DNA from: Patescibacteria group bacterium
Lineage (GTDB): Bacteria; Patescibacteriota; Saccharimonadia; Saccharimonadales; JAUPVS01
Reading direction: 5' to 3'
Assembly: GCA_030916945.1 (NCBI GenBank)
Contig: JAUPVS010000008.1
Location: forward strand, 1 to 43,774
Length of the DNA: 43,774 bases
The notes beneath the pieces were generated by a model, which saw nothing but the letters and a program-made list of their open reading frames with translations, had not been told where the DNA came from and searched no databases. The translations under genes were made by a program, and so were the position numbers. Shown piece by piece: positions 12,356-29,988 of this stretch (within the stretch, counting starts at the first letter, position 1; every line of letters starts with the position of its first letter).

Positions 12356-12715
12356 CTATACTTCTACTTCTTGCCAAACTAGATCAATTGCCGAGAAAAA
12401 GTTGCGCGTAAATTCCGCGGCATCTTGTGCAGAAAACGGTTTGCAAGTATAGCAGTCGACCGTAAATAGGGCGGGTTCGGTTGGATAAGAGTAGAAGGCT
12501 GCTCCTGAAGTCTTCCAGTGTATCCAGCCACCATAACCCATATCGTGCGCGGAATAGGCGTATGGTCCAGAAAGTTTTTCCATGCCTGTTACTTCGGCAA
12601 GTTTGTCGAGGTATTCCTTAAGTCTCTCTGGTTTTACAATTTTGTCTGTAGTCCCTTCTATAATAACTCGTTGTCTCACTAATCCAGGTGCTAGGTTTTT
12701 CCAGTCTTTTTTCAT
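12356..12715 (-). CDS. Diverged S-adenosylmethionine decarboxylase-like (SpeD/SpeH) protein
   Basis: A 119-residue protein with the size and fold signature of the class 1b pyruvoyl enzyme SpeD/SpeH. The C-terminal motif TVDCYTCKPF matches the conserved AVDVFTCG strand with its catalytic Cys (here Cys91), and KTSGAAFYSYP occupies the place of ESHLSIHTWP. The self-cleaving serine appears kept as Ser70, but the preceding Glu and the following catalytic His are replaced (Thr and probably Tyr). Either processing is altered or the substrate is not AdoMet; some SpeD homologues are known to have become amino acid decarboxylases. The ATG overlaps the stop of the oxidoreductase gene (ATGA), so it is the last gene of a three-gene operon. 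Confidence 0.65.
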   Translation of the reverse strand: MKKDWKNLAPGLVRQRVIIEGTTDKIVKPERLKEYLDKLAEVTGMEKLSGPYAYSAHDMGYGGWIHWKTSGAAFYSYPTEPALFTVDCYTCKPFSAQDAAEFTRNFFSAIDLVWQEVEV

Positions 12716-14115
12716 TTCTTCTCCCTTATCATATTATTTACTTCTCTTGATGAACTAACAGATTCGTAAACGCTCGACATGATTAAACTGGAGAGTCTGT
12801 GTGACTCAAGAGATGAAGTTCCTTTTGTTTGTCCGTTATTTATAAGAGCAAGGAATTCCTTTATCCCGTCGCGTCGTGCATCTTCTTGGTGTCCACGTGA
12901 GTAATCTCCGAGAACTGGCTTGTATATATCTTTAAGGTTGTACGTCTCAACTCTTTCGCCACCGATAATTTCACTGTTTCGGAAAATTGTTATATCAAGA
13001 TTAAACTCGTGTCCTGATTTGTAAATGTTTTTCTTGTCTACCGATTCTTGTTTAAAGGGTACGGCTTGCCAAGACGTTAGTAAGATTGAGGCAAATGGAC
13101 CGAAATTCATATAATGCTGCTCATGCCTAACACGGCCATTACCTTTATAAAGATCTCTGTCTCCAATTGTCGGCCATGAGCGCGCTGAAAGCCCTGAGTG
13201 CTGTAAATCAATCTGAGCATGTGTTACAACATTACTGCCTGATTTTAGTTGAATTGTGCTCATCACATCAATCTCACCAAAGCCATCAGAATATAAGGAA
13301 GCATTAATGGAGGTGTCTTTCTTGCTATCTGGAAAAACCTTTTCTAGAACATCATGACTAACCTGGGTAATGTAGTTACTTGGGAAATTAGGCCACGCTT
13401 TGACTCTAATGCTATCCATTTTTTTATCAGAACTGAAATCTTCACTAAACCAAGCAAGCAAGTCATAGAAGTGATACCCAGAGTGAGACGCCTTACCATA
13501 ACCATGATTAAAACCGTGGTAGTCAATTGAACTTATCTCTAATGGCGTTCTCCATTGCCCGTCATTGTGAAAAGCGTAGTAATAGGTTATTGGGCAGCCT
13601 GTTTTCGCATAAATTTCTGCAACGGTTTTTTTAACTAGTTGAAAAGCCGGGTGAAAACGGCGTTGTGTCAGCACCTCGCAAACAAGATTTGGATGCTCTG
13701 CCCTAGCTCGATTAAGCTCGTTCTGCAGGTCAACGTAGGCTTTGTGTATCTTTATGGCTCGTTTACGATCATGCGCTGCTCCTGGTTCTGCATGTATGGG
13801 CTTATCCATCAGTACGTGATAACCACGTCCGAATGCCCACTTAGCATACACAGTGTGACTCTCGGGGTCGGTGCTGATTACAACAGCGTCAACTCTCAGC
13901 TCACTAGCAAAATCCGTAAGAGCCTGAAGTTGATCTGTCTCTTGATCAATAGAGAGTATGGGCAATCTGTTTTTGCCCAAGTAATCAACAATTTCCTCTT
14001 CGTGTCTTTGGTGATCAACCACACCCACTACTTCAATACCGGAAAGCTCACTAATCGCGGGATAGTGAATTCTTTGTGCGTGCCGGCCAAAACCAACTAT
14101 AAGTACCCTTACCAT
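12712..14115 (-). CDS. Gfo/Idh/MocA family oxidoreductase
   Basis: A 467-residue NAD(P)-dependent oxidoreductase. The N-terminal Rossmann fold has GFGRHAQRIHYPA (about 8-20) and VVDHQ at the end of beta 2, followed by VVISTDPESH and the family's DKP variant of the EKP motif (MDKPIH, about 103-108). Members oxidise or reduce hydroxyls of sugars, inositols, amino acids or biliverdin. At 467 residues it is longer than the usual 330-390; the extra length is in the C-terminal half, which contains SIDYHGFNHGYGKASHSGYHFYD-type His/Tyr-rich sequence. It overlaps the kinase-like gene by one base (TAATG) and the SpeD-like gene by four, so it is the middle gene of a tightly coupled operon. Confidence 0.8.
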   Translation of the reverse strand: MVRVLIVGFGRHAQRIHYPAISELSGIEVVGVVDHQRHEEEIVDYLGKNRLPILSIDQETDQLQALTDFASELRVDAVVISTDPESHTVYAKWAFGRGYHVLMDKPIHAEPGAAHDRKRAIKIHKAYVDLQNELNRARAEHPNLVCEVLTQRRFHPAFQLVKKTVAEIYAKTGCPITYYYAFHNDGQWRTPLEISSIDYHGFNHGYGKASHSGYHFYDLLAWFSEDFSSDKKMDSIRVKAWPNFPSNYITQVSHDVLEKVFPDSKKDTSINASLYSDGFGEIDVMSTIQLKSGSNVVTHAQIDLQHSGLSARSWPTIGDRDLYKGNGRVRHEQHYMNFGPFASILLTSWQAVPFKQESVDKKNIYKSGHEFNLDITIFRNSEIIGGERVETYNLKDIYKPVLGDYSRGHQEDARRDGIKEFLALINNGQTKGTSSLESHRLSSLIMSSVYESVSSSREVNNMIREKK

Positions 14116-14927
14116 TACTGTGTGTATTGTTCATACATAGGGCTGACGCTACGAATTTGATCAACTTCAGGATACATGGCAGCCAAGTGATCTAAAATAA
14201 CCCCCGTGGTTTCGGATACCGGAGCTTCTCCGTCAAGGTCAATAATCGTCGTTGTAGTGCTTTCTGGTAGTGCATCCTTAGCTCTCAAAAAGTCATCATA
14301 GTATTCGTAGACCGCGCGCATTCGGAACGCTCTATCGTAGTCATCCTGAGAGATTCGCGACTCCAGAACAGTCTGTGGTGCTGTTAAATTAAAAAGAATA
14401 TCGGGCATGGTCTCTTCATACGTAATTTCCTCGCCCGGTATCTGTAGGTATGGCGGCCACATCTGTTCCTCAGTAAGCTTACCCTCGACGCTACCTTCTC
14501 GCTGAAGAGCTAGTGTGGCTCGCGAAATAATTGACCGATCCAAAATTGCTGCAGCAAAACGGCTGCGCGAGATACGAGCGATATCACCGAGTGCTCCAAG
14601 CCATACACGATTCTCTCGTGCAAGTGTGTAGGCATCGACATCCCATTCGGTGCGAGGGGTGTGCAGACCAGCATGATAGTCGTGGCGGTGAGTCCAATAG
14701 CGCGAGCCAAGATCATGCCAGGCCTCTCCAGCGCCCAAGCGGGTCCCATCACCCTTTAGAACCATTGTCGGCACACCTCTTGATGTGAAGTAAGAGTTTA
14801 ATGCTTTAAGTTGTTCTCCTTTGCCAACCCTGCAACAGCCGTCAAGAGCGATTTTGCCAACTCTGAACTCTTCTGTGACTGGGTCTGTAGTGTTTCTTGT
14901 TTCTGGGCTTTTTACAACTTCTGGCAT
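14115..14927 (-). CDS. Thymidylate-kinase-like P-loop protein
   Basis: A 270-residue P-loop kinase of the dTMP kinase-like group. The Walker A is DGCCRVGKGEQ (about 29-39), then a DR motif (ILDRSIISRATLALQ) and the beta strand PDILFNLTAP, followed by SRISQDDYDRAFRMR in the LID/arginine region, in the correct order. The loop reads GKGE where dTMP kinase has GKST and adenylate kinase GKGT, so the Mg-coordinating hydroxyl is absent and activity is in doubt. It is clearly longer than dTMP kinase (about 205-215), with an N-terminal extension and an insert around residues 60-90 rich in His, Trp and Tyr. It is first in the operon with the oxidoreductase and SpeD-like genes. The start has a GGAG ribosome site. 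Confidence 0.7.
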   Translation of the reverse strand: MPEVVKSPETRNTTDPVTEEFRVGKIALDGCCRVGKGEQLKALNSYFTSRGVPTMVLKGDGTRLGAGEAWHDLGSRYWTHRHDYHAGLHTPRTEWDVDAYTLARENRVWLGALGDIARISRSRFAAAILDRSIISRATLALQREGSVEGKLTEEQMWPPYLQIPGEEITYEETMPDILFNLTAPQTVLESRISQDDYDRAFRMRAVYEYYDDFLRAKDALPESTTTTIIDLDGEAPVSETTGVILDHLAAMYPEVDQIRSVSPMYEQYTQ

Positions 14928-15006
14928 ATATATTTCTCCGTGGTATACATATTATATGTGTATGATATACTCATCTTATGAGTAGGTCAACTTAAGCAGG
15001 GCTGTA
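14928..15006 (+). promoter_or_regulatory. Divergent control region with two palindromes
   Basis: This gap separates two divergent operons. The imperfect palindrome at 14945-14963 (ATACATATTATATGTGTAT) covers the minus-strand -10 TATAAT (14951-14956). The perfect palindrome TACTCAT-CTT-ATGAGTA (14968-14984) covers the plus-strand -10 TATACT (14966-14971) and the predicted start site at 14978. The plus transcript would begin on a five-codon ORF (14978-14995) before the real gene. The ribbon-helix-helix protein encoded at 15007 is the natural candidate to bind here. Confidence 0.6.
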
Positions 15007-15582
15007 ATGAAAGCACACTTTATTGCTTCGGGTACTAATCTTAAAGCAGATATTCACAATTATAGGAACATAGTCCGCTACATAGAAAGTCTTAATGTAT
15101 CCTTGACTAGAAACTGGTTAGAGCCAGCTTATAAACGCTCAAAATCCAACATAAAAAATCCGGTGTCTTGGCAAGATGTTTACCGTTCAAACTTAGAGGC
15201 TGTATCCAAGGCGGATATTATAGTTGCCGAAATTAGTCGTAAATCATTTTTGGTTGGCTTTCAGGTCGCAAATGCTCTTCAGCAGAAGAAGCCAATTCTT
15301 TTGCTGTCTGACAACGATCAGGTTGAAACAGCAATTGGAGCAAGTATTGATGAAGATATTATTCAATATGCAAAGTACACCCCAAAAAACCTTGAAGAAG
15401 TAATCGGAAAGTTTATCGATCAAAACAAAGTTAAGAAGAAAGACCTAAAATTCAACTTTTTTATAGATCGCAAAATTTTGAATTACCTTAATTGGGCATC
15501 GTTCCATAGCGGTGATACAAAGTCAGAAATAATCCGCAAAGCATTACTTAAAGAAATTGATAGATCGGAATTCAACAAATGA
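15007..15582 (+). CDS. Deoxyribosyltransferase-like domain fused to a ribbon-helix-helix
   Basis: A 191-residue two-domain protein. Residues 1-145 follow the nucleoside 2-deoxyribosyltransferase fold: an N-terminal strand HFIAS, and ADIIVAEISRKSFLVGFQVANALQ-like sequence (about 69-92) aligning with the family S-x-G-T-A-F-E-I-G-Y-A segment. The catalytic Glu aligns with Gln86, so enzyme activity is doubtful. Residues about 149-187 look like a ribbon-helix-helix DNA-binding domain (NFFIDRKILNYLNWAS ... KSEIIRKALLKEI). Together this suggests a nucleotide- or nucleoside-sensing repressor rather than an enzyme. It overlaps the dioxygenase gene by four bases and lies beside two palindromes. Confidence 0.6.
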   Translation: MKAHFIASGTNLKADIHNYRNIVRYIESLNVSLTRNWLEPAYKRSKSNIKNPVSWQDVYRSNLEAVSKADIIVAEISRKSFLVGFQVANALQQKKPILLLSDNDQVETAIGASIDEDIIQYAKYTPKNLEEVIGKFIDQNKVKKKDLKFNFFIDRKILNYLNWASFHSGDTKSEIIRKALLKEIDRSEFNK

Positions 15583-16217
15583 ACACACCCTATTTACCCA
15601 ATGGCGAACATTTTCAAGTCTTTCAAGGAATACCAATAAATGAAATGTCTCCAACAATGCACGAGATCGGCAAGAGTATTGGTACGACAACGTTTGAACT
15701 AGGGCTTATTGGCTATGGCGACCCAGAACCGGTTCGCATACATAGCGAATCTGTTTACCACCCGGAAATGTGCCCATACTTCATGCTTGCCTGCGTCAAA
15801 CCTGCTGAAGACGGCGGAGACACTATAGTATACGACGGCGTTAAGGCAGCCAGAATCATTACCGAAGAGCAGCCAGATCTGCTAAATGTAAGAATGGTTT
15901 ACCATGCCGAGCATTACGACGATACAAAGGCGGTTGTCCCCTTGGTAAGAAATCTAGGAGGAGAGGACTCGCTGACTTTTCGGCAGAAATTCTACCTAAA
16001 TGAAGTACACCACCTGCCCGAAGGTATGAGTGAGGACGGCTTTTACGAATATATGGACAGCGTTCTAGATAGATCTGTAGAGTTTCACGCAACTCTTCAA
16101 CCTGGGGAGATAATTTTAATAAATAATTATAAGACACTTCACGTCAGAACGGCATACACGGGTTTACGTAAGATCATTAGGGTTCGAGTGGATGACCCCG
16201 CCTATGTAGCGATTTAA
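15579..16217 (+). CDS. TauD/TfdA-like Fe(II)/2-oxoglutarate dioxygenase
   Basis: A 212-residue non-haem iron oxygenase-like protein with the double-stranded beta-helix pattern of the TauD/TfdA family. The metal-binding pair reads HSE (His55, Glu57) in place of H-x-D. This is followed by the PAEDGGDTIVYDG strand (about 75-87), matching the family GGDT signature, and late by NNYKTLHVRTAYTGLRKIIR with the distal His188 and the 2-oxoglutarate-binding Arg197. It is shorter than TauD (about 280). The substrate is unknown. The start codon lies inside the stop of the upstream regulator-like gene, so it is translationally coupled to it. Confidence 0.75.
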   Translation: MNTPYLPNGEHFQVFQGIPINEMSPTMHEIGKSIGTTTFELGLIGYGDPEPVRIHSESVYHPEMCPYFMLACVKPAEDGGDTIVYDGVKAARIITEEQPDLLNVRMVYHAEHYDDTKAVVPLVRNLGGEDSLTFRQKFYLNEVHHLPEGMSEDGFYEYMDSVLDRSVEFHATLQPGEIILINNYKTLHVRTAYTGLRKIIRVRVDDPAYVAI

Positions 16218-16276
16218 GTTTACAGCTGCATCAAGCACCTGTACTCTTTAAGGATGATTAACACCAAGGGATTACT

Positions 16277-16678
16277 ATGAAAATCAACGTTAGCGTCATT
16301 ACAACTCATCAAAACAAAATACTCCTCATGCAAAGAAGCCTTACTGATGATTATTGCCCAGGCGCTTGGGGGGTTCCTGGTGGTTACATGGAAAAAGAAG
16401 ACAACACGCTAGAAGATACCGCGATTCGTGAAGTTTACGAAGAACTTGGTGTCAAGATTACACCTAGGACTATATTATTCAATAATAAGAATGAAGATAC
16501 CGACAGCCTCTATATTGTTTACGTCGCTGAGCTTGCAAATGCCGCAGACTACCCCAAAGGGATCACACTTTCTGATGAAGCTAACGATTTCAAATGGGCA
16601 GAAGCAGAAGATCTAGATAAACTAGAGTTCACTCCCTACACCAAAGATAGACTTGTCAAAATTTTTGAATCCTTCTAA
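16277..16678 (+). CDS. NUDIX hydrolase
   Basis: A 133-residue hydrolase of nucleoside diphosphates linked to another moiety. The Nudix box is visible as GGYMEKED...TAIREVYEELGV (about 33-58), with the metal-binding REVYEE intact; the spacing before REVYEE is about two residues longer than the canonical x7. The N-terminal strand and the GAWGVPGG loop are typical of dNTP or dinucleotide-sugar hydrolases. It follows the dioxygenase by 59 nt and has a weak AAGGG ribosome site, so it is probably the last gene of the rightward operon. In this context a sanitising or activated-nucleotide role is plausible but not shown. Confidence 0.85.
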   Translation: MKINVSVITTHQNKILLMQRSLTDDYCPGAWGVPGGYMEKEDNTLEDTAIREVYEELGVKITPRTILFNNKNEDTDSLYIVYVAELANAADYPKGITLSDEANDFKWAEAEDLDKLEFTPYTKDRLVKIFESF

Positions 16679-16837
16679 CAGTCAAAACTATCGGCCGGGG
16701 CCGATGAGCTGTCTGATGTCTTCTGCCTGATGGCCCACGACCTCGACATCGATCTGGGAAAAGCCTTACAGGCTAAAATGAAGAAAAACGCCAAGAAATA
16801 TCCAGTAGAGAAAGCCCACGGCAATCACAAGAAGTAA
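16679..16837 (+). pseudogene. 3' fragment of a MazG-like nucleotide pyrophosphohydrolase (copy A)
   Basis: The frame from 16679 to the stop at 16835-16837 has no start (it begins right after the NUDIX stop) and reads like the C-terminal half of a MazG-type pyrophosphohydrolase: ADELSDVF ... LMAHDLDIDL ... KKNAKKYPVEKA. The metal-binding E/D pair (ELSD) is present. Compared with copy B it lacks an internal stretch that would restore the YWVLL helix. It is therefore a decayed gene end. Confidence 0.65.
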
Positions 16838-16843
16838 GCAGCT

Positions 16844-17362
16844 TTAGCGATACATACTTCTGTCGAGCATAGAACTATCGAATGCAGGGTATGAAGCATT
16901 GAAACTAGGAACGTTGGGCGCATCTTCGACAGCCACAATCTGCTCGGGCGAGATATAGCCGATTACTAAGGCTTCATAGGTAAACATAGCGTCGGTGACC
17001 AGTTGATCGGCCCGTACCACCATGGTGGCGACTTGCTCGCCTTCACCGTGAGCATACCTTTTAGCAATTTCTAGTTCTGGTGTGGCTGAAATAAAGGGTG
17101 TTAGCCCACGATCGCGCCAGCCACCGGGCTGGGTGTGTGGAACAATGTAGTTAAAGAGCCTAATGGTATCACCAGCAGCAACTTCTGCAATGACATCATC
17201 AATTACATTCTGGGCGCCATTGGCGTAAGCAGCCGACAAAAAGCCGACAGCTGAATCTTCCTTGGTTGGGTCAAAGCCACGATAAACAATGAGCTCTTCT
17301 TCAGGTGAAGAACCCAACATCATATACTGAGGTAGATTGTGCCAATTGAATGACAGTTTCAT
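16844..17362 (-). CDS. Hypothetical protein with ADP-ribosyltransferase-like pattern
   Basis: A 172-residue protein when started at the ATG at 17362, which has TAAAAT 7 nt upstream; an ATG at 17398 would lie inside remnant B and is rejected. The pattern LIVYRGFD (Arg28), then TPFISATPELEIAKRYA (Ser92, Thr94) and a late Glu (130, 140 or 146) resembles the R-S-E order of arginine-type ADP-ribosyltransferase folds. It is the only gene between two broken copies of the same MazG-like gene end and next to a restriction-modification pair. Toxin or effector function would be inference; it could also be an unrelated small alpha/beta enzyme. Confidence 0.45.
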   Translation of the reverse strand: MKLSFNWHNLPQYMMLGSSPEEELIVYRGFDPTKEDSAVGFLSAAYANGAQNVIDDVIAEVAAGDTIRLFNYIVPHTQPGGWRDRGLTPFISATPELEIAKRYAHGEGEQVATMVVRADQLVTDAMFTYEALVIGYISPEQIVAVEDAPNVPSFNASYPAFDSSMLDRSMYR

Positions 17363-17397
17363 ATCTGTTATTTTAACATAAGAGGGTTGAAATGTCA

Positions 17398-17466
17398 ATG
17401 TCTGATGTCTTCTATTGGGTTCTGCTGATGGCCCACGGCAATCACAAGAAGTATACTGAGCTATAG
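17398..17466 (+). pseudogene. 3' fragment of the same MazG-like gene (copy B)
   Basis: The frame 17398-17466 reads SDVFYWVLLMAHGNHKK before a stop. It keeps the YWVLL helix missing from copy A but lacks everything between the MAH and the GNHKK tail of copy A (about 75 bp). The junction falls exactly on the heptamer GCCCACG, which occurs at both breakpoints in copy A (16732-16738 and 16814-16820), a typical short-homology deletion. It overlaps the end of the methyltransferase gene. Confidence 0.6.
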
Positions 17467-18780
17467 AGTATTACCAAATTTGTTTAGTCTATTAAGTTGT
17501 CCCATAAAATATCTGTCATTTTTTATTTCTTCGCTTGCATATATTTTTACAGTACTTAGTAGCTGCTCAGCTTCCAAGTCTTCGAACATTTCTGATTGTT
17601 CAGCTTTGGGATCGGGGGAGAAGCTACCCATGGGCTGCAAGCCATGTATGAATCGTGTTAATGTTGCATTTAGTGCTTCCAGACTATTATCGATACCTAC
17701 CCAACGTCGCTTTAGCTTCGACGCAACCCCTAAAGTAGTTCCCGAACCCGCAAAGCAATCTAAAACTAAATCACCAGGCTTTGATGAAGCTTCAATAATT
17801 CTTTCTAATAATTTCGGATTCTTTTCAGTCGGGTAGCCTGTTATCTTTATATTTTGATTGTGAGGGTCTTTGACGTCTAGCCAAATATCTTGGACTGGTA
17901 TCCCTAGATTAGTGTCTAAATATATCTTTCTACGAGGGTTTCCAGTAGAAGACCAATATATTTCACCCTTTTCGTCTAATTCATCTAAGGTACTTCTCTT
18001 ATACTGCCAATGCTTACCTGCAGGGGGCTTCATTCCTTTCCATTCTTTTCCTGTATCCCCATTCCGAACGCCGGGAGCATGGATAGGCACACGCTTATAT
18101 CTCCTTCCGGATTCTTTTTCTATATAAGGATACTCTCGATCTGCCTCTTCAGGTAGCCAGCTATTATATGGCCGATTCCAGGTATACTTATCAGATTTAC
18201 TGTAAAACATTATATAGTCTGCGACGTTCCCAAATTGTTTACGCGTATAGTTCTTGGGGTTACTTTTCTTTCTCACAATTATGTTTCTAAAATTCTTTCT
18301 TCCGAACACTTCATCCATTATGAGCTTAATCTCAAAGGCCATATTATCGTCTAAGTGAAGATATATTGACCCATCTTCAGAAAGAAGCTGTTTTAAGAAA
18401 ATAAGTCTTTCTCTAATAAATTCGATATAGTGCGAACCGACTAGAAGATCGCTGTAAGCATCCTTTCTATCTCGAGAAACAAAAAATTTATTAGTAGCGA
18501 ATGGGGGGTCAATATAAATAAGCTTTACCTTACCTCTGTACCTGTCTTGTTTTACTAGGGAAGCTAGAGTACTTAAATTTTCACCTAAGTACAACGCTCC
18601 TAGTTCCTCTATCTCACTATGTTTACCGCTCCACACATTACTAATCAAACTTTTTTCCGTCTTTAGTAAAATATCTTTTTCTTCTGCTTTGCCTGCATAA
18701 TTAATCGAGTACTCCAGGTCTTTAGAAGAATACTTTTTAGCATTATCGCGATAGTTTTTTTTGGTTTCTCCAGTTGCCAT
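17461..18780 (-). CDS. DNA methyltransferase, beta class (adenine-N6 or cytosine-N4)
   Basis: A 439-residue amino-methyltransferase. The catalytic motif IV is IYIDPPFATN (DPPF about 91-94) and the SAM-binding motif I is LDCFAGSGTTLG (about 341-351). Having IV before I makes it beta class, with a target-recognition region between (about 170-300). Motif X-like sequence precedes motif IV. DPPF is most often N6-adenine but does not exclude N4-cytosine. It follows the presumed restriction gene by 12 nt with an AGGTAG ribosome site, forming a two-gene cassette. Codon use is clearly AT-richer (many AAA, ATA, TTA codons) than the phe operon to its right, which suggests acquisition. Confidence 0.85.
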   Translation of the reverse strand: MATGETKKNYRDNAKKYSSKDLEYSINYAGKAEEKDILLKTEKSLISNVWSGKHSEIEELGALYLGENLSTLASLVKQDRYRGKVKLIYIDPPFATNKFFVSRDRKDAYSDLLVGSHYIEFIRERLIFLKQLLSEDGSIYLHLDDNMAFEIKLIMDEVFGRKNFRNIIVRKKSNPKNYTRKQFGNVADYIMFYSKSDKYTWNRPYNSWLPEEADREYPYIEKESGRRYKRVPIHAPGVRNGDTGKEWKGMKPPAGKHWQYKRSTLDELDEKGEIYWSSTGNPRRKIYLDTNLGIPVQDIWLDVKDPHNQNIKITGYPTEKNPKLLERIIEASSKPGDLVLDCFAGSGTTLGVASKLKRRWVGIDNSLEALNATLTRFIHGLQPMGSFSPDPKAEQSEMFEDLEAEQLLSTVKIYASEEIKNDRYFMGQLNRLNKFGNTL

Positions 18781-18792
18781 AACACTACCTAT

Positions 18793-19668
18793 TTAAGAAG
18801 TAAGCCATTCGTAGGTAAGCCTATCGGGGATCATTCGCAGAGTAGTTACCATAATTTTCTCCGGAACCGACTCTTCTAAAGTAGAGTAGTCTCTCCACAT
18901 TGAACCCAGCAACAATCCAGGACCATCATTTACAAATATTACTTTCAAATTCTTCTCTGTTTCACTTGCGTAATTAAGTATTTCTCTGGCAGCATTGTGA
19001 TATCCGCCCGTTCTGTCGTCTTCCTGAGCACCACCCCTGTCTCCATCGTAACGTGCAAGTCCGATTGCTAAAGGAGTCACTTCGTCCGTATCATAAATTA
19101 TAAAGTCAACAGGTCGCTGAGGGTTTGGATAATCTTTAAATACATTAGAGAGTTTTATATCTTGCCCTGCTCTTTGAGGGCCGGTGATTCGTAGCTCAGG
19201 GAAGTATGACATAATCATTTCAAAAAATCGTTCGGTCAAATCGTAGCCCTTTGATCCTCTACTCTTGTACTCCCAAAGAAGCGCACATAACGCTTCGTCA
19301 GGCATTGGTCTAGAAATAAATGACGATTGCACCTCATTGATAGGTCTATACCCTTTTCCGAAACGCTCATTTATCTGCTTAGCAGCAGATTTCTTTTTTA
19401 ACATTTCGACTGGGGTTTCGGGGGAAACATATTTACGAAACGCACGGCATAACTGTATCCTCATCCATGGCTCGGAGACTTCACTAATCTGTAAGAATAG
19501 CCTTGTAGAAGATTCTGAAACTTTAAGAAGCTGACCGAATAACTGCAAAACAGGCTCATAGAGTAAACATGCGTCGGTTAGAATGTCGGGATAATACTCT
19601 CCAGTAGATAATGTAATCCAGTTGTGACCTTCTTCTTTGTAATCTGCAAATTTTTTAACTGAATTCAT
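18793..19668 (-). CDS. Presumed type II restriction endonuclease
   Basis: A 291-residue protein called a restriction enzyme mainly by its position as the first gene of a cassette with a solitary methyltransferase. The C-terminal half contains PVDFIIYDTDEVTPLAIGLARYDGDRGGAQEDDR, with an Asp followed at the right distance by a conserved, charged strand. That could be a PD-(D/E)xK core with an unusual last motif, but the lysine is not clear. The N-terminal half (VSPETPVEML, INERFGKGYRP) is helical and may bind DNA. Possible -10 TATGAT 8 nt before the ATG. I cannot name its recognition site. Confidence 0.55.
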   Translation of the reverse strand: MNSVKKFADYKEEGHNWITLSTGEYYPDILTDACLLYEPVLQLFGQLLKVSESSTRLFLQISEVSEPWMRIQLCRAFRKYVSPETPVEMLKKKSAAKQINERFGKGYRPINEVQSSFISRPMPDEALCALLWEYKSRGSKGYDLTERFFEMIMSYFPELRITGPQRAGQDIKLSNVFKDYPNPQRPVDFIIYDTDEVTPLAIGLARYDGDRGGAQEDDRTGGYHNAAREILNYASETEKNLKVIFVNDGPGLLLGSMWRDYSTLEESVPEKIMVTTLRMIPDRLTYEWLTS

Positions 19669-19701
19669 ATACGATCATCATAGCAAAATATATGAGATTA
19701 A

Positions 19702-20490
19702 CTAAGGCGAATCGGTGTTATTCTGTGAAACAGATATCAAGCTGCACTTCAAACCACTTTCATTAACAAGCTTATCTAGCTCTTTAAAAAGCTTTAAGAA
19801 GTTTTGTGTCGCATCATCAAAGCTACTTTTTGTAACTTCAATTGTGCTACCTACTTGCTCAGATTTCTCATGAAGTTTTACCTTTTTAGTATTACTCACG
19901 TACCTTTCGTCTATGATGCCATTATTATGGATAAGTGCATGTCTCATTTGCCAGTATTTGTGAATGGCATTCAAATAAACGCTGTCTGCCAGTTTTATAC
20001 CAAAATGTCTATTTAAAATCTCCTTTGTAGTATTAACATTCTGGAAATTTATTTTTTCAACGGGGTTTTTACTGGAATATAGCTTCTTTACCGTAAGATC
20101 GCCTAATGCCGATGACAGCTCTTCTAAAGTTTGTTTTTTGTTTCTTTTGGTAGCAAGTATCTCTTGGAGTTCCTTCGCAGAGAAGTTAACTCCTGCTGAA
20201 GTCGATATCTGAGTAAAATTTTCTTTTAGAAGACAAATAAAAATGTCTTTTAACAATGCTTCTGCAGCACCGGTCAATAGAATAAAACCTTGCGAATAAA
20301 GCTGACTGGATATTTTTTGCTGTTCATAATCAACCGAATTTTTCGCGTTTTCAAGTGCTTTAATCGTGTTTGGGTTTATTTTAAGCGTTTTTAGCGCACC
20401 CATATAGATTCCGTATAGAGTTCTATACGAATCAAATATTGAATTAATACTTTCAGTCCTTTTAGTAAAAGTCTGATCTAGACTTCTCAT
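19702..20490 (-). CDS. HEPN-domain protein, possible RNase effector
   Basis: A 262-residue helical protein. The motif MRHALIHNNGIID (about 182-194) gives R-x4-H (Arg183, His188), the catalytic signature of HEPN ribonucleases, on a helix following a paired helical region (LLTGAAEALLKDIFICLL). HEPN proteins are toxins or effectors in abortive-infection and other defence systems, but also occur as non-catalytic partners. It sits immediately upstream of the restriction cassette in the same orientation and shares its AT-rich codon use, 33 nt away. No antitoxin-like partner is obvious beside it. It starts 7 nt after the end of pheT. Confidence 0.6.
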   Translation of the reverse strand: MRSLDQTFTKRTESINSIFDSYRTLYGIYMGALKTLKINPNTIKALENAKNSVDYEQQKISSQLYSQGFILLTGAAEALLKDIFICLLKENFTQISTSAGVNFSAKELQEILATKRNKKQTLEELSSALGDLTVKKLYSSKNPVEKINFQNVNTTKEILNRHFGIKLADSVYLNAIHKYWQMRHALIHNNGIIDERYVSNTKKVKLHEKSEQVGSTIEVTKSSFDDATQNFLKLFKELDKLVNESGLKCSLISVSQNNTDSP

Positions 20491-27244: not shown

Positions 27245-28711
27245 ATGGCAATGGAGCAAACCGACCAGCACGCCCAACTTTATGCTGACATAGAAGAGCG
27301 CAGCATGGCGGTCCTGCGCGCCAACATCTTGCCTGGCACCGATCTTATGGTGCCCCATCTTGAGCTGTTTGGCGGCTCGATGTTTTTGTGGGACCTGGCC
27401 GTCCAGGCCAGGGCCATGGCCTACGAAGACCCCCAATTAGCGGCCGGCAACATCGTTCACTTTACTAGCGGTCAGCGCAAAAGCGGTCAGATTGGTAATG
27501 AGCTTTCGACCGGTCGCGTCAAACCAATTGCTCAGCAAATGGTTTTTGGGCCAGCCGAGGACAGCCGGGAACCCGGTGACCACCGACCCCCCACCAGCCA
27601 TATCACTCAGCCACCCACCATCGTCAATGCCGCCTACGAAGTTGGTCAGCACCTGCCCGAAGATGAGCGTCAGCAATTTTATCGCCACGTCTTTCCAAAG
27701 TTCAAGCGTTATCTGTCGTTTTTACTAAACGAGCGTACCGACCCCAATGACAACTTAGTCATCTTGCTCCACCCCTATGAATCCGGCATGGACGACACCC
27801 CACCGTGGCGCGAAAAAATGCACCAAGCCTGGCACCATGACATGCCCGTGTCACGCCAAGTTGCTCAAAACCTGGCCAGCGCTGTGGTGGGCGAAGGCCG
27901 GCGCCGCTTTACCGACGGCCGTTATGTACCACTCGAACAGCGCGCCAGCAACCTGGACATCCTGACTAGCTACCTGCAAACCCGCGCACTCAGTAAGTGT
28001 AAGTACGACCTGGAGTGCGCCCAGCGCGATCCCCGTATTGTCTTGATTAAAGACATCGGCTTTAATGCCGTGTTGGCCAGTGCCAGCACCGCCCTAGAGT
28101 CGATGGCCACCCAAATTGATGATCCCGACTACGTTATTGATGGCGATATGCAAATGCGTATGTACCTGCAGCAACAAGCCGTCATCGAAGAGCTATGGGA
28201 CAAAAGTACCATGACCTACTACAGCAAGGACGCCCGCACCAACGAACTCATCCCCATCCAAACCGTGGCCAGCCTGTTCCCGCTACTTAACAAGATCCCT
28301 GAGAATCACGTCGCTGCCATACTAACCGACCTACGCGCTCCCGGTAAATTCAACGGTGGTTATACCAGCGTCCCCTTTAACTCTAAGTACTTTAGGCCAG
28401 GCGTCTATTGGGGTGGTTCTAAGTGGGCATTTGCGGCTGACCTGCTTGAACAAGGCCAGGTTGTACAAGGGCGCCACAAACTGGCCGCCGCTTTTAGACA
28501 TCAAGACTTAACCCGGCCAGCCGAACCCTTTAAAGCCGAATACGAGCACCCTATAACCGGAGAACCGCTGGGTGGTCTTGGTTTTGCACCGATGGCGGCT
28601 AAGGATCGGATTTTTGTGGAGCATCAAAAACCTACCCACAATCCGAACGTAAGCGGTATACTACCTGCATGGAGCCCGCAGAGATTTTACAAGCCGCCAA
28701 AACGGTCATAG
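27245..28711 (+). CDS. GH63/MGH1-like glycoside hydrolase paralogue, diverged
   Basis: A 488-residue cytoplasmic protein of the (alpha/alpha)6-barrel hydrolase group that includes GH63-type glucosidases, mannosylglycerate hydrolase and trehalase-like enzymes. It aligns in order with the next gene: FLWDLAVQA versus WLWDSCF, TQPPTIVNAAYEVG versus TQPPMLAEAI, HPYESGMDDTPPW versus SWETGLDNTPPW, SVPFNSKYFRPGVYWGGSKW versus a matching end. The Asp of the ESGMDD segment, the likely acid, is kept. An insert around residues 70-105 replaces the substrate-facing loop, so substrate choice probably differs. The last 43 bp overlap the next gene. Confidence 0.7.
   Translation: MAMEQTDQHAQLYADIEERSMAVLRANILPGTDLMVPHLELFGGSMFLWDLAVQARAMAYEDPQLAAGNIVHFTSGQRKSGQIGNELSTGRVKPIAQQMVFGPAEDSREPGDHRPPTSHITQPPTIVNAAYEVGQHLPEDERQQFYRHVFPKFKRYLSFLLNERTDPNDNLVILLHPYESGMDDTPPWREKMHQAWHHDMPVSRQVAQNLASAVVGEGRRRFTDGRYVPLEQRASNLDILTSYLQTRALSKCKYDLECAQRDPRIVLIKDIGFNAVLASASTALESMATQIDDPDYVIDGDMQMRMYLQQQAVIEELWDKSTMTYYSKDARTNELIPIQTVASLFPLLNKIPENHVAAILTDLRAPGKFNGGYTSVPFNSKYFRPGVYWGGSKWAFAADLLEQGQVVQGRHKLAAAFRHQDLTRPAEPFKAEYEHPITGEPLGGLGFAPMAAKDRIFVEHQKPTHNPNVSGILPAWSPQRFYKPPKRS
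28657..28662 (+). promoter_or_regulatory. Leaderless promoter -10 TATACT inside the upstream gene
   Basis: TATACT, 6 nt (ACCTGC), then the ATG at 28669, all within the coding end of the first hydrolase gene. The second hydrolase can thus be transcribed without the palindromic operator at 27225. Confidence 0.6.
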
Positions 28712-29988
28712 CTAACAACGACCACGACGGCCAGTACACTATTCCGGCGCATGGCTTATACCCCCACCAGTGGCTGTGGGACAGTTGTTTTGTGGCCATT
28801 GGTATGGCCAACTACGACGTTAAGCGCGCCCAGCAAGAGATTCTTAGCTTGTTACGTGGCCAGTGGGCCAACGGCATGCTGCCCAGCATGATCCTCAACA
28901 AAGATTTTACGCACCGGGCCGATCGCGAGTTCTGGCGCAGCTACATATCACCGTTTGCCCCCGACAAAGTCGCTACCAGTGGCATCACCCAGCCACCAAT
29001 GTTGGCCGAAGCGATTGTTAAGATTGGCAAGCAACTACCCAAGCCGGCCCGCCGGACCTGGTTCGCTAAAACCTACCCAGCCCTGCTCAAATATCATCAG
29101 TGGCTCTACAACGACCGTGACCCGCATCACACCGGCCTTACCTTGCAGGTTCATTCGTGGGAAACCGGGCTCGACAACACACCACCGTGGATCGACGAAC
29201 TCCACCAGCACCGCCTGCCCTTTTGGATTAATACTATTCATACCCTTAAGCTCGACAAGATCTTTACCGTCTTTCGGCGTGATGTCCACTTTTTAGCATC
29301 GTCGGTCGAACAACGCATGAGCACCATCGACGTCTTTACGCTGTACAGCATCCAACGCCGCTTGCGCCGCAAAGCCTACGACATTAACCGCATTTTGACC
29401 CACAACATGTTGACTATCGAGGACTTAACTTTTAACTGCATTTTTGTGCGTGCCAACCAGCACCTGCGTTACATTGCCCGCACCATTGGTCACGACATCC
29501 CCGACGAGCTCGACAAACGAATGCGCCAGTCCGACCAAGCCATCGACGAGCTGTGGGACGAACAGACCGGCAACTATTATTCGCGTAACTACGCCACCCA
29601 AAAACTAATTAAGCTTCCCACCCTAGCCGGTTTAATGCCACTTTATGCTGGCTGTGTTAGTAAAGAAAAAGCTGCCCAACTGGTGGAAATTCTAAATTCT
29701 AAACCCTACAAGACTAAATATCCGGTGCCGACAGTGCCGACTAACTCGGATTGGTTCCACCCTATGATGTACTGGCAGGGCCCAACCTGGCTCAACACCA
29801 ACTGGTTACTGGCCGATGGCCTAGAACGTTACGGCTATAAAGAAGAAGCCGCCCACATCCGCGAGCGTTCCATCGACATGGTCACTAAGAGTGGCTTTTA
29901 CGAATACTTTTCGCCACTCGATGCCACACCAGCTGGCACCGACAACTTTAGTTGGACGGCCGCTATGATCATCGACTTTTTGAGCTAG
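28669..29988 (+). CDS. GH63/MGH1-like glycoside hydrolase
   Basis: A 439-residue enzyme of the GH63-related MGH1-like group ((alpha/alpha)6 barrel), which hydrolyses alpha-linked glucose or mannose from small compatible solutes such as glucosyl- or mannosylglycerate, or from oligosaccharides. Signatures: HQWLWDSCF (about 33-41), GITQPPMLAEA (about 105-115), SWETGLDNTPPW (163-174, likely acid Asp169), and near the end YWQGPTWLNTNW and YEYFSPLDATPAGTDNFSWTAA with a candidate base Glu. There is no signal peptide, so it acts inside the cell. It is a tandem paralogue of the preceding gene and better conserved. Confidence 0.8.
   Translation: MEPAEILQAAKTVIANNDHDGQYTIPAHGLYPHQWLWDSCFVAIGMANYDVKRAQQEILSLLRGQWANGMLPSMILNKDFTHRADREFWRSYISPFAPDKVATSGITQPPMLAEAIVKIGKQLPKPARRTWFAKTYPALLKYHQWLYNDRDPHHTGLTLQVHSWETGLDNTPPWIDELHQHRLPFWINTIHTLKLDKIFTVFRRDVHFLASSVEQRMSTIDVFTLYSIQRRLRRKAYDINRILTHNMLTIEDLTFNCIFVRANQHLRYIARTIGHDIPDELDKRMRQSDQAIDELWDEQTGNYYSRNYATQKLIKLPTLAGLMPLYAGCVSKEKAAQLVEILNSKPYKTKYPVPTVPTNSDWFHPMMYWQGPTWLNTNWLLADGLERYGYKEEAAHIRERSIDMVTKSGFYEYFSPLDATPAGTDNFSWTAAMIIDFLS

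Follow-up and report, generated by a model that had tools for sequence, protein, structure and literature searches.

Does the divergent six-gene cluster of a Saccharibacteria-type genome encode one biochemical pathway, and if so, on what kind of molecule would it act? The cluster lies at positions 12,356 to 16,678 of the window, by which is meant the whole 43,774-nucleotide stretch that was analyzed (contig JAUPVS010000008.1, assembly GCA_030916945.1). The host genome, G000, has 859,970 bases in 27 contigs and is 94.6% complete; the relatives recovered by sequence carry the title Candidatus Saccharibacteria. The original prediction had described six genes, with their coordinates and 1- and 4-base overlaps, as a single undescribed nucleotide-linked pathway under a shared control region. 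The gene anatomy was borne out in full. Three of the genes, which encode a thymidylate kinase (TMPK)-like kinase, a Gfo/Idh/MocA oxidoreductase (Gfo) and a NUDIX hydrolase, are a conserved unit that spans both divergent operons. The other three encode a SpeD-like protein, a protein with an NDT/DNPH1-like domain and a C-terminal ribbon-helix-helix (NDT-RHH), and a TauD-like dioxygenase. These are accessories that are not conserved with the triad, and since they have no conserved link to it, a "six-gene pathway" is too strong a claim. What is supported is an undescribed kinase-oxidoreductase-Nudix module plus accessories. A search of the accessible literature found no paper describing the cluster's enzyme combination.

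The triad is split in the window. The kinase gene (14115..14927) and the Gfo gene (12712..14115) lie on the left arm, on the minus strand, and overlap by 1 base; the Gfo gene in turn overlaps the SpeD-like gene by 4 bases. The NUDIX gene (16277..16678, plus strand) lies on the right arm, where the NDT-RHH and TauD genes overlap by 4 bases. Because the triad is conserved elsewhere and straddles both operons here, it ties the two arms together. A search with the kinase only, in 245 genomes of the class, gave four carriers (the window's own genome, G101, G216 and G142), and all four have Gfo and NUDIX in the cluster. A Gfo profile search of 393 Saccharibacteria genomes gave eight carriers, of which G652 holds the full triad and G131 has Gfo fused to NUDIX. 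Scanning the genomes of 84,980 species with the Gfo alignment gave 77 loci. By locus, the triad stands at L018, at the Saccharibacteria locus L033 and at two Pacearchaeota loci, the Gfo-NUDIX arrangement as a fusion at L019, and the Gfo and kinase pair at two Anaerolineae loci. The full six-gene set had no second occurrence among the genomes and loci searched.

The two Pacearchaeota loci share an operon of Gfo, kinase, an uncharacterised protein of ~434 amino acids, a probable HD protein and NUDIX. The ~434-residue and HD proteins sit between kinase and NUDIX (L023:8941-11417 and L024:3589-6027). The HD protein was called by eye and is without a Pfam match. A NodU/CmcH-type carbamoyltransferase gene faces the operon.

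The window kinase had been called dTMP-kinase-like. By itself it gives no Pfam match, but family profile and fold agree with the call. A profile of ten family kinases matches solved thymidylate kinases first in the PDB (E 5e-11), and the top PDB fold matches of the predicted model are thymidylate kinases. Against a leave-one-out family profile the window kinase scores 147 bits and a canonical thymidylate kinase 51. The family shares with thymidylate kinase (Tmk) the fold, the DR motif, the LID arginines and a type I-like P-loop arginine. However, the P-loop of the window kinase, GCCRVGKGEQ, lacks the TMPK aspartate; each of the nine kinases with an aligned P-loop has His, Asn or Cys there, followed by the retained Arg. 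The P-loop aspartate of TMPKs contacts the 3'-hydroxyl of dTMP. It has been described as unique to these enzymes (PMC3169407). The absence of this aspartate suggests that the substrate differs at its 3' position. Furthermore, the gene is clustered with Gfo and is not a housekeeping gene. Canonical Tmk was rejected as its identity because the gene is rare and the aspartate replaced. A family that so resembles dTMP kinase minus the marker residue would be mis-annotated as Tmk.

The Gfo protein (PF01408, E 1e-11) belongs to a distinct subfamily of ~470 amino acids. It has the N-terminal NAD(P)-binding Rossmann domain with the catalytic Lys in an (E/D)KP motif. K105-P106 and an HSGYH motif are invariant in the 42 aligned subfamily members, and D104 is present in 40. 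A set of basic residues is also conserved (R152, K208, R312, K324 and R328 in 42/42; R330 in 41; R153 and R379 in 38), which would suit an anionic substrate. The predicted model is confident (pLDDT 89.6); its best Foldseek match has an E value of 1.7e-17 and TM scores of 0.57/0.68, and others reach about 0.62/0.79. The nearest folds are those of sugar dehydrogenases.

The NUDIX protein (PF00293, E 4e-17) carries the Nudix box RExxEExG as REVYEELG. A profile made from seven triad NUDIX proteins, with the window's left out, gives it 94 bits and the NUDIX of genome G065 91, whereas the best other NUDIX paralogue in related genomes reaches 44. By this profile the window NUDIX is a member of the triad's own subfamily.

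One and the same Gfo subfamily is accompanied by two NUDIX subfamilies, of which one also occurs fused to Gfo, and by kinases of unrelated folds (TMPK, AAA_17/33, APH and acetate kinase). This points to a link with a phosphorylated substrate. We infer from homology, the source of all functional assignments here, that the core may be a three-enzyme module tailoring a phosphorylated small molecule, with kinase, oxidoreductase and Nudix acting in series. This reading is quite possible but falls short of probable. First, the TMPK-fold kinase would phosphorylate a nucleotide-like monophosphate or a sugar phosphate other than ordinary dTMP. Second, with NAD(P) as cofactor, the Gfo enzyme would oxidise or reduce one of the sugar hydroxyls of the now phosphorylated compound. 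Third, NUDIX would cleave the diphosphate, releasing or recycling the product. In the window, TauD may add a hydroxylation and the SpeD-like protein a decarboxylation or chemistry derived from S-adenosylmethionine (SAM), and NDT-RHH is probably a nucleotide sensor that exerts control over the divergent promoter region.

Several points weigh against this reading. Neither the six genes nor those directly next to them include a Pur3- or Pur4-like gene, and the window has no HD phosphohydrolase. Most loci were gathered via Gfo, which biases the view; only the kinase search of 245 genomes is independent of it. The enrichment of NUDIX near Gfo (29 of 457 genes within 2.5 kb vs 3 of 586 at 2.5-8 kb, odds ratio 13) and the mild enrichment of small P-loop kinases (16 within 2.5 kb vs 7 at 2.5-8 kb, p 0.01) speak for the module, but these statistics ignore the kinship of the loci. 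Many of the NUDIX cases are one Bacilli/Clostridia group, and the NUDIX there is of a different subfamily. With only ~26-37% identity to the other members and a long branch (2.04) in the tree, the window Gfo may act on a different substrate, and its placement is not firm. In a 67-member tree its closest partners are two Pacearchaeota proteins (98/89), followed by a Clostridia group (100/99), and the other Saccharibacteria lie elsewhere; the kinase tree also places the window with Pacearchaeota, weakly (57/74). When plasmid sequences are added, proteins from Streptomyces, Embleya and Kitasatospora join the window Gfo clade (96/89). The Streptomyces members come from plasmid clusters that also hold APH, NAGPA-like and PIG-L genes, a content that suggests aminosugar-like chemistry.

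The main rival explanation starts from these plasmid clusters. Gfo would oxidise a phosphorylated sugar or cyclitol, the kinase would be a sugar- or cyclitol-phosphate kinase on a TMPK fold, NUDIX would cleave a nucleotide sugar, and the product would be an aminosugar or cyclitol. This is a serious rival even though it is rather unlikely. The plasmid Gfo genes of the window clade overlap an APH kinase gene, which is followed by NAGPA-like and PIG-L de-N-acetylase genes. The fold neighbours of the Gfo model are glucuronide-3-dehydrogenase, NAD-dependent glycoside hydrolases, inositol dehydrogenases and glucose-fructose oxidoreductase, and in Clostridia related Gfo genes lie with radical SAM, histidine phosphatase and methyltransferase genes. 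However, the kinase of triad loci is always thymidylate-kinase-like, NUDIX stands in place of PIG-L and NAGPA, and the six window genes include no aminotransferase, glycosyltransferase or deacetylase.

Two gene neighbourhoods of the Gfo subfamily were noted in addition. The plasmid cluster is conserved at L189-L193 (Streptomyces, Embleya and Kitasatospora) as CoA ester lyase, MaoC, GNAT, APH, Ldh, LLM oxidoreductase, Gfo, APH kinase, NAGPA-like and PIG-L genes, and gives the impression of an uncharacterised natural-product locus. Several other bacteria of candidate phyla have, after Gfo and an AAA-type kinase, a protein of 740-770 amino acids without a Pfam match, whose start is methyltransferase-like by eye (L038:9420-11735, L087:9434-11662).

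A nucleotide is a plausible substrate. To that extent the nucleotide-type chemistry of the original prediction stands, and Gfo relatives occur in aminosugar-type contexts as well. A more specific version, an undescribed modified-nucleotide pathway with a core common to Saccharibacteria, Pacearchaeota and Chloroflexi, is doubtful. It would combine a TMPK-derived non-dTMP kinase, a nucleotide-oxidising Gfo and a dedicated Nudix with added hydroxylation and decarboxylation steps, under the control of a dead-DNPH1/RHH sensor. If this were true, the modified nucleotide could be the epibiont's signal to, or weapon against, its host or competitors.

It is improbable that the cluster is an accidental neighbourhood, a variable island of unrelated accessory genes in which only the Gfo-kinase pair is functionally linked. 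Such an island would fit the missing link of SpeD-like, NDT-RHH and TauD genes to the triad. It would also fit the flank between the cluster and pheT, which holds a DNA methyltransferase-like gene and other accessory genes that had been missed before, and whose content varies among relatives, as do the genes 3' of pheT. However, the right-arm NUDIX is of the triad subfamily, the genes inside each operon overlap by 1-4 bases, and the TauD-NUDIX adjacency recurs in G065. In that genome a 29-residue TauD remnant lies directly 5' of a NUDIX 66% identical to the window's.

The flank itself (16844-20490) holds an ADP-ribosyltransferase-like gene called by eye, the DNA methyltransferase-like gene with a partner, and an uncharacterised gene, and ends at pheT. 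pheT served as the anchor in the search for an empty site; the contig of the nearest relative stops ~2 kb beyond it.

The three accessories show other associations. The TauD/clavaminate-synthase-like Fe(II)/2-oxoglutarate dioxygenase (15579..16217, plus strand, 212 amino acids; PF02668, E 1e-18) has the iron triad H55-x-E57 and H188 and the 2-oxoglutarate arginine R201, as aligned to TmpA and clavaminate synthase (6npb, 1drt). It recurs in only two other genomes, as a 59% identical protein in G089 and as the remnant in G065. The G089 gene lies ~9 kb from its own pheT, on the other side, and has DUF4202/HD, P-loop kinase, nucleotidyltransferase, sulfotransferase and NUDIX genes as neighbours (L126:3901-9726). 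A viral origin of the cluster has no support: the kinase has no relatives in phage, plasmid or viral collections, Gfo none in phage or viral-contig collections and TauD none in viral contigs.

The SpeD-like protein (12356..12715, minus strand, 119 amino acids; PF02675, E 5e-9) is an AdoMet decarboxylase family member found in 11 of 215 genomes, its own included. The key residues of Thermotoga maritima SpeD are S63, H68 and C83 (PMC10407285). In nine SpeD-like orthologues S70, Y75 and C91 are invariant; aligned by motif, the Ser and Cys are kept and the His68 position is Tyr75, and there is no PDB profile match to confirm the alignment columns. As in the SpeD-derived arginine and ornithine decarboxylases (SpeDA, SpeDC), the superfamily, the pyruvoyl-forming Ser and the catalytic Cys are retained, but the Tyr sets the whole Saccharibacteria clade apart. 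Elsewhere the gene usually adjoins one that weakly matches the LuxI/GNAT families, with a response regulator and a histidine kinase. Saccharibacteria loci L138-L145 (e.g. L140:3793-4970) show this arrangement with the Tyr-type protein, the regulator and kinase being usual there. The pairing could be a SAM-derived signal system. LuxI homologues adjoining sensor kinases have been reported in the candidate phyla radiation, in an account whose consulted part mentions no SpeD partner (PMC7567580). In G172 the SpeD-like gene is found beside nicotianamine synthase and SAM synthetase genes (L146:4457-5659).

NDT-RHH (15007..15582, plus strand) had been called a deoxyribosyltransferase-RHH protein. Pfam upholds the AdoMet_dc, GFO_IDH_MocA, TauD and NUDIX calls of the cluster, but the Nuc_deoxyrib_tr match of this protein (3e-4) lies below the family cut-off. 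By PDB profile its N-terminal domain matches DNPH1/Rcl, the 2'-deoxynucleoside 5'-phosphate N-hydrolase (E 3.5e-10), with GYE of the hydrolase aligned to GYQ. Of 11 orthologues, 10 have Gln in place of the catalytic Glu (Q86 in the window) and one has Leu. RHH_1 passes the Pfam cut-off in one orthologue (L137). Among 215 genomes, about a dozen have a full-length orthologue; the gene mostly stands alone, and ruvB or uvrA is often close by. An active deoxyribosyltransferase was rejected on account of the Glu to Gln change. Unlike DNPH1/Rcl, the protein has this substitution and an extra ribbon-helix-helix, and so is probably a nucleotide-sensing regulator and not an enzyme.

Both strands of the 79-base divergent region (14928..15006) have promoter-like sites, and the region holds two imperfect palindromes (14944-14962 and 14963-14989). 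The palindromes announced earlier thus exist, but the best of them was equalled in 74 of 1000 shuffles, which is within chance, and regulation by a strong palindrome was rejected. The gap also holds an element like TATACATAT/ATATGTGTA, which 3 of 10 other NDT-RHH orthologues likewise have upstream (4 of 11 overall against 0.12 expected); the pattern was picked post hoc, after the sequences were viewed. As a candidate operator motif it is only suggestive.

The NUDIX gene is directly abutted at its 3' end by a remnant that had also been overlooked, the C-terminal part of a MazG-like nucleotide pyrophosphohydrolase without a start codon (16679..16837, plus strand; PF12643, E 2e-7, on a frame of 52 codons). 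Judged by eye, its MazG type is not that of the intact MazG which G065 has near NUDIX. NUDIX and MazG-like families are classic house-cleaning enzymes. Very improbable is a house-cleaning or salvage role, in which the kinase and NUDIX (formerly also MazG) would handle damaged or foreign nucleotides, Gfo would repair an oxidised or reduced sugar and NDT-RHH would sense nucleotide monophosphates: the MazG-like remnant beside NUDIX and the closeness of the NDT domain to DNPH1, a hydrolase of modified dNMPs, speak for it, but the remnant is broken, the module is rare and patchy (kinase in 4 of 245 genomes, Gfo in 8 of 393 Saccharibacteria genomes), unlike housekeeping repair, and the clusters that hold Gfo in other phyla look biosynthetic, with genes for adenylating enzymes, carrier proteins and carbamoyltransferase.

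Farther along the window (27245-29988) lie two neighbouring paralogous glycosidase-like genes; one related protein matches both, with 53% and 31% identity.

The preferred reading remains the kinase-Gfo-NUDIX module working on a phosphorylated small molecule. Saccharibacteria and other small-genome epibionts are without most biosynthesis, so a genome of 0.86 Mb would not be expected to hold a dedicated small-molecule module. Such a module may bear on how epibionts interact with their hosts. The three proteins, which recur across bacteria and archaea, are a testable set, and the regulator beside them looks like a nucleotide hydrolase that has lost its activity and become a sensor.

The module can be compared by description with two known systems. 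The Pur10 dehydrogenase is of the Gfo/Idh/MocA type. In puromycin synthesis Pur10 acts as an NAD-dependent ATP dehydrogenase and Pur7 as a Nudix enzyme cleaving NTP to NMP and PPi; homologues of the pair occur for A201A (ataP10/ataP7), cystocin (CstG/CstH) and aminodeoxyguanosine (AdgB/AdgD) (PMC11641026, PMC9239236). The window likewise has a dehydrogenase clustered with a Nudix hydrolase. It differs in having a TMPK-like kinase, and no Pur4-type aminotransferase, Pur3-type phosphatase or methyltransferase among the six; membership of the puromycin family was rejected because the Pur3 and Pur4 counterparts are absent. Second, the cordycepin cluster has an oxidoreductase, a nucleoside/nucleotide kinase domain and an HD phosphohydrolase (PMC8869658). 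The Pacearchaeota loci resemble this cordycepin/pentostatin system (Cns1-Cns2-Cns3) in that a single operon unites Gfo and kinase with a probable HD protein and NUDIX. The window differs from it in that it has no HD or HisG gene, uses NUDIX as the hydrolase and is bacterial, not fungal. Together the two parallels favour an order of kinase, oxidation and diphosphate cleavage acting on a phosphorylated sugar or nucleotide.

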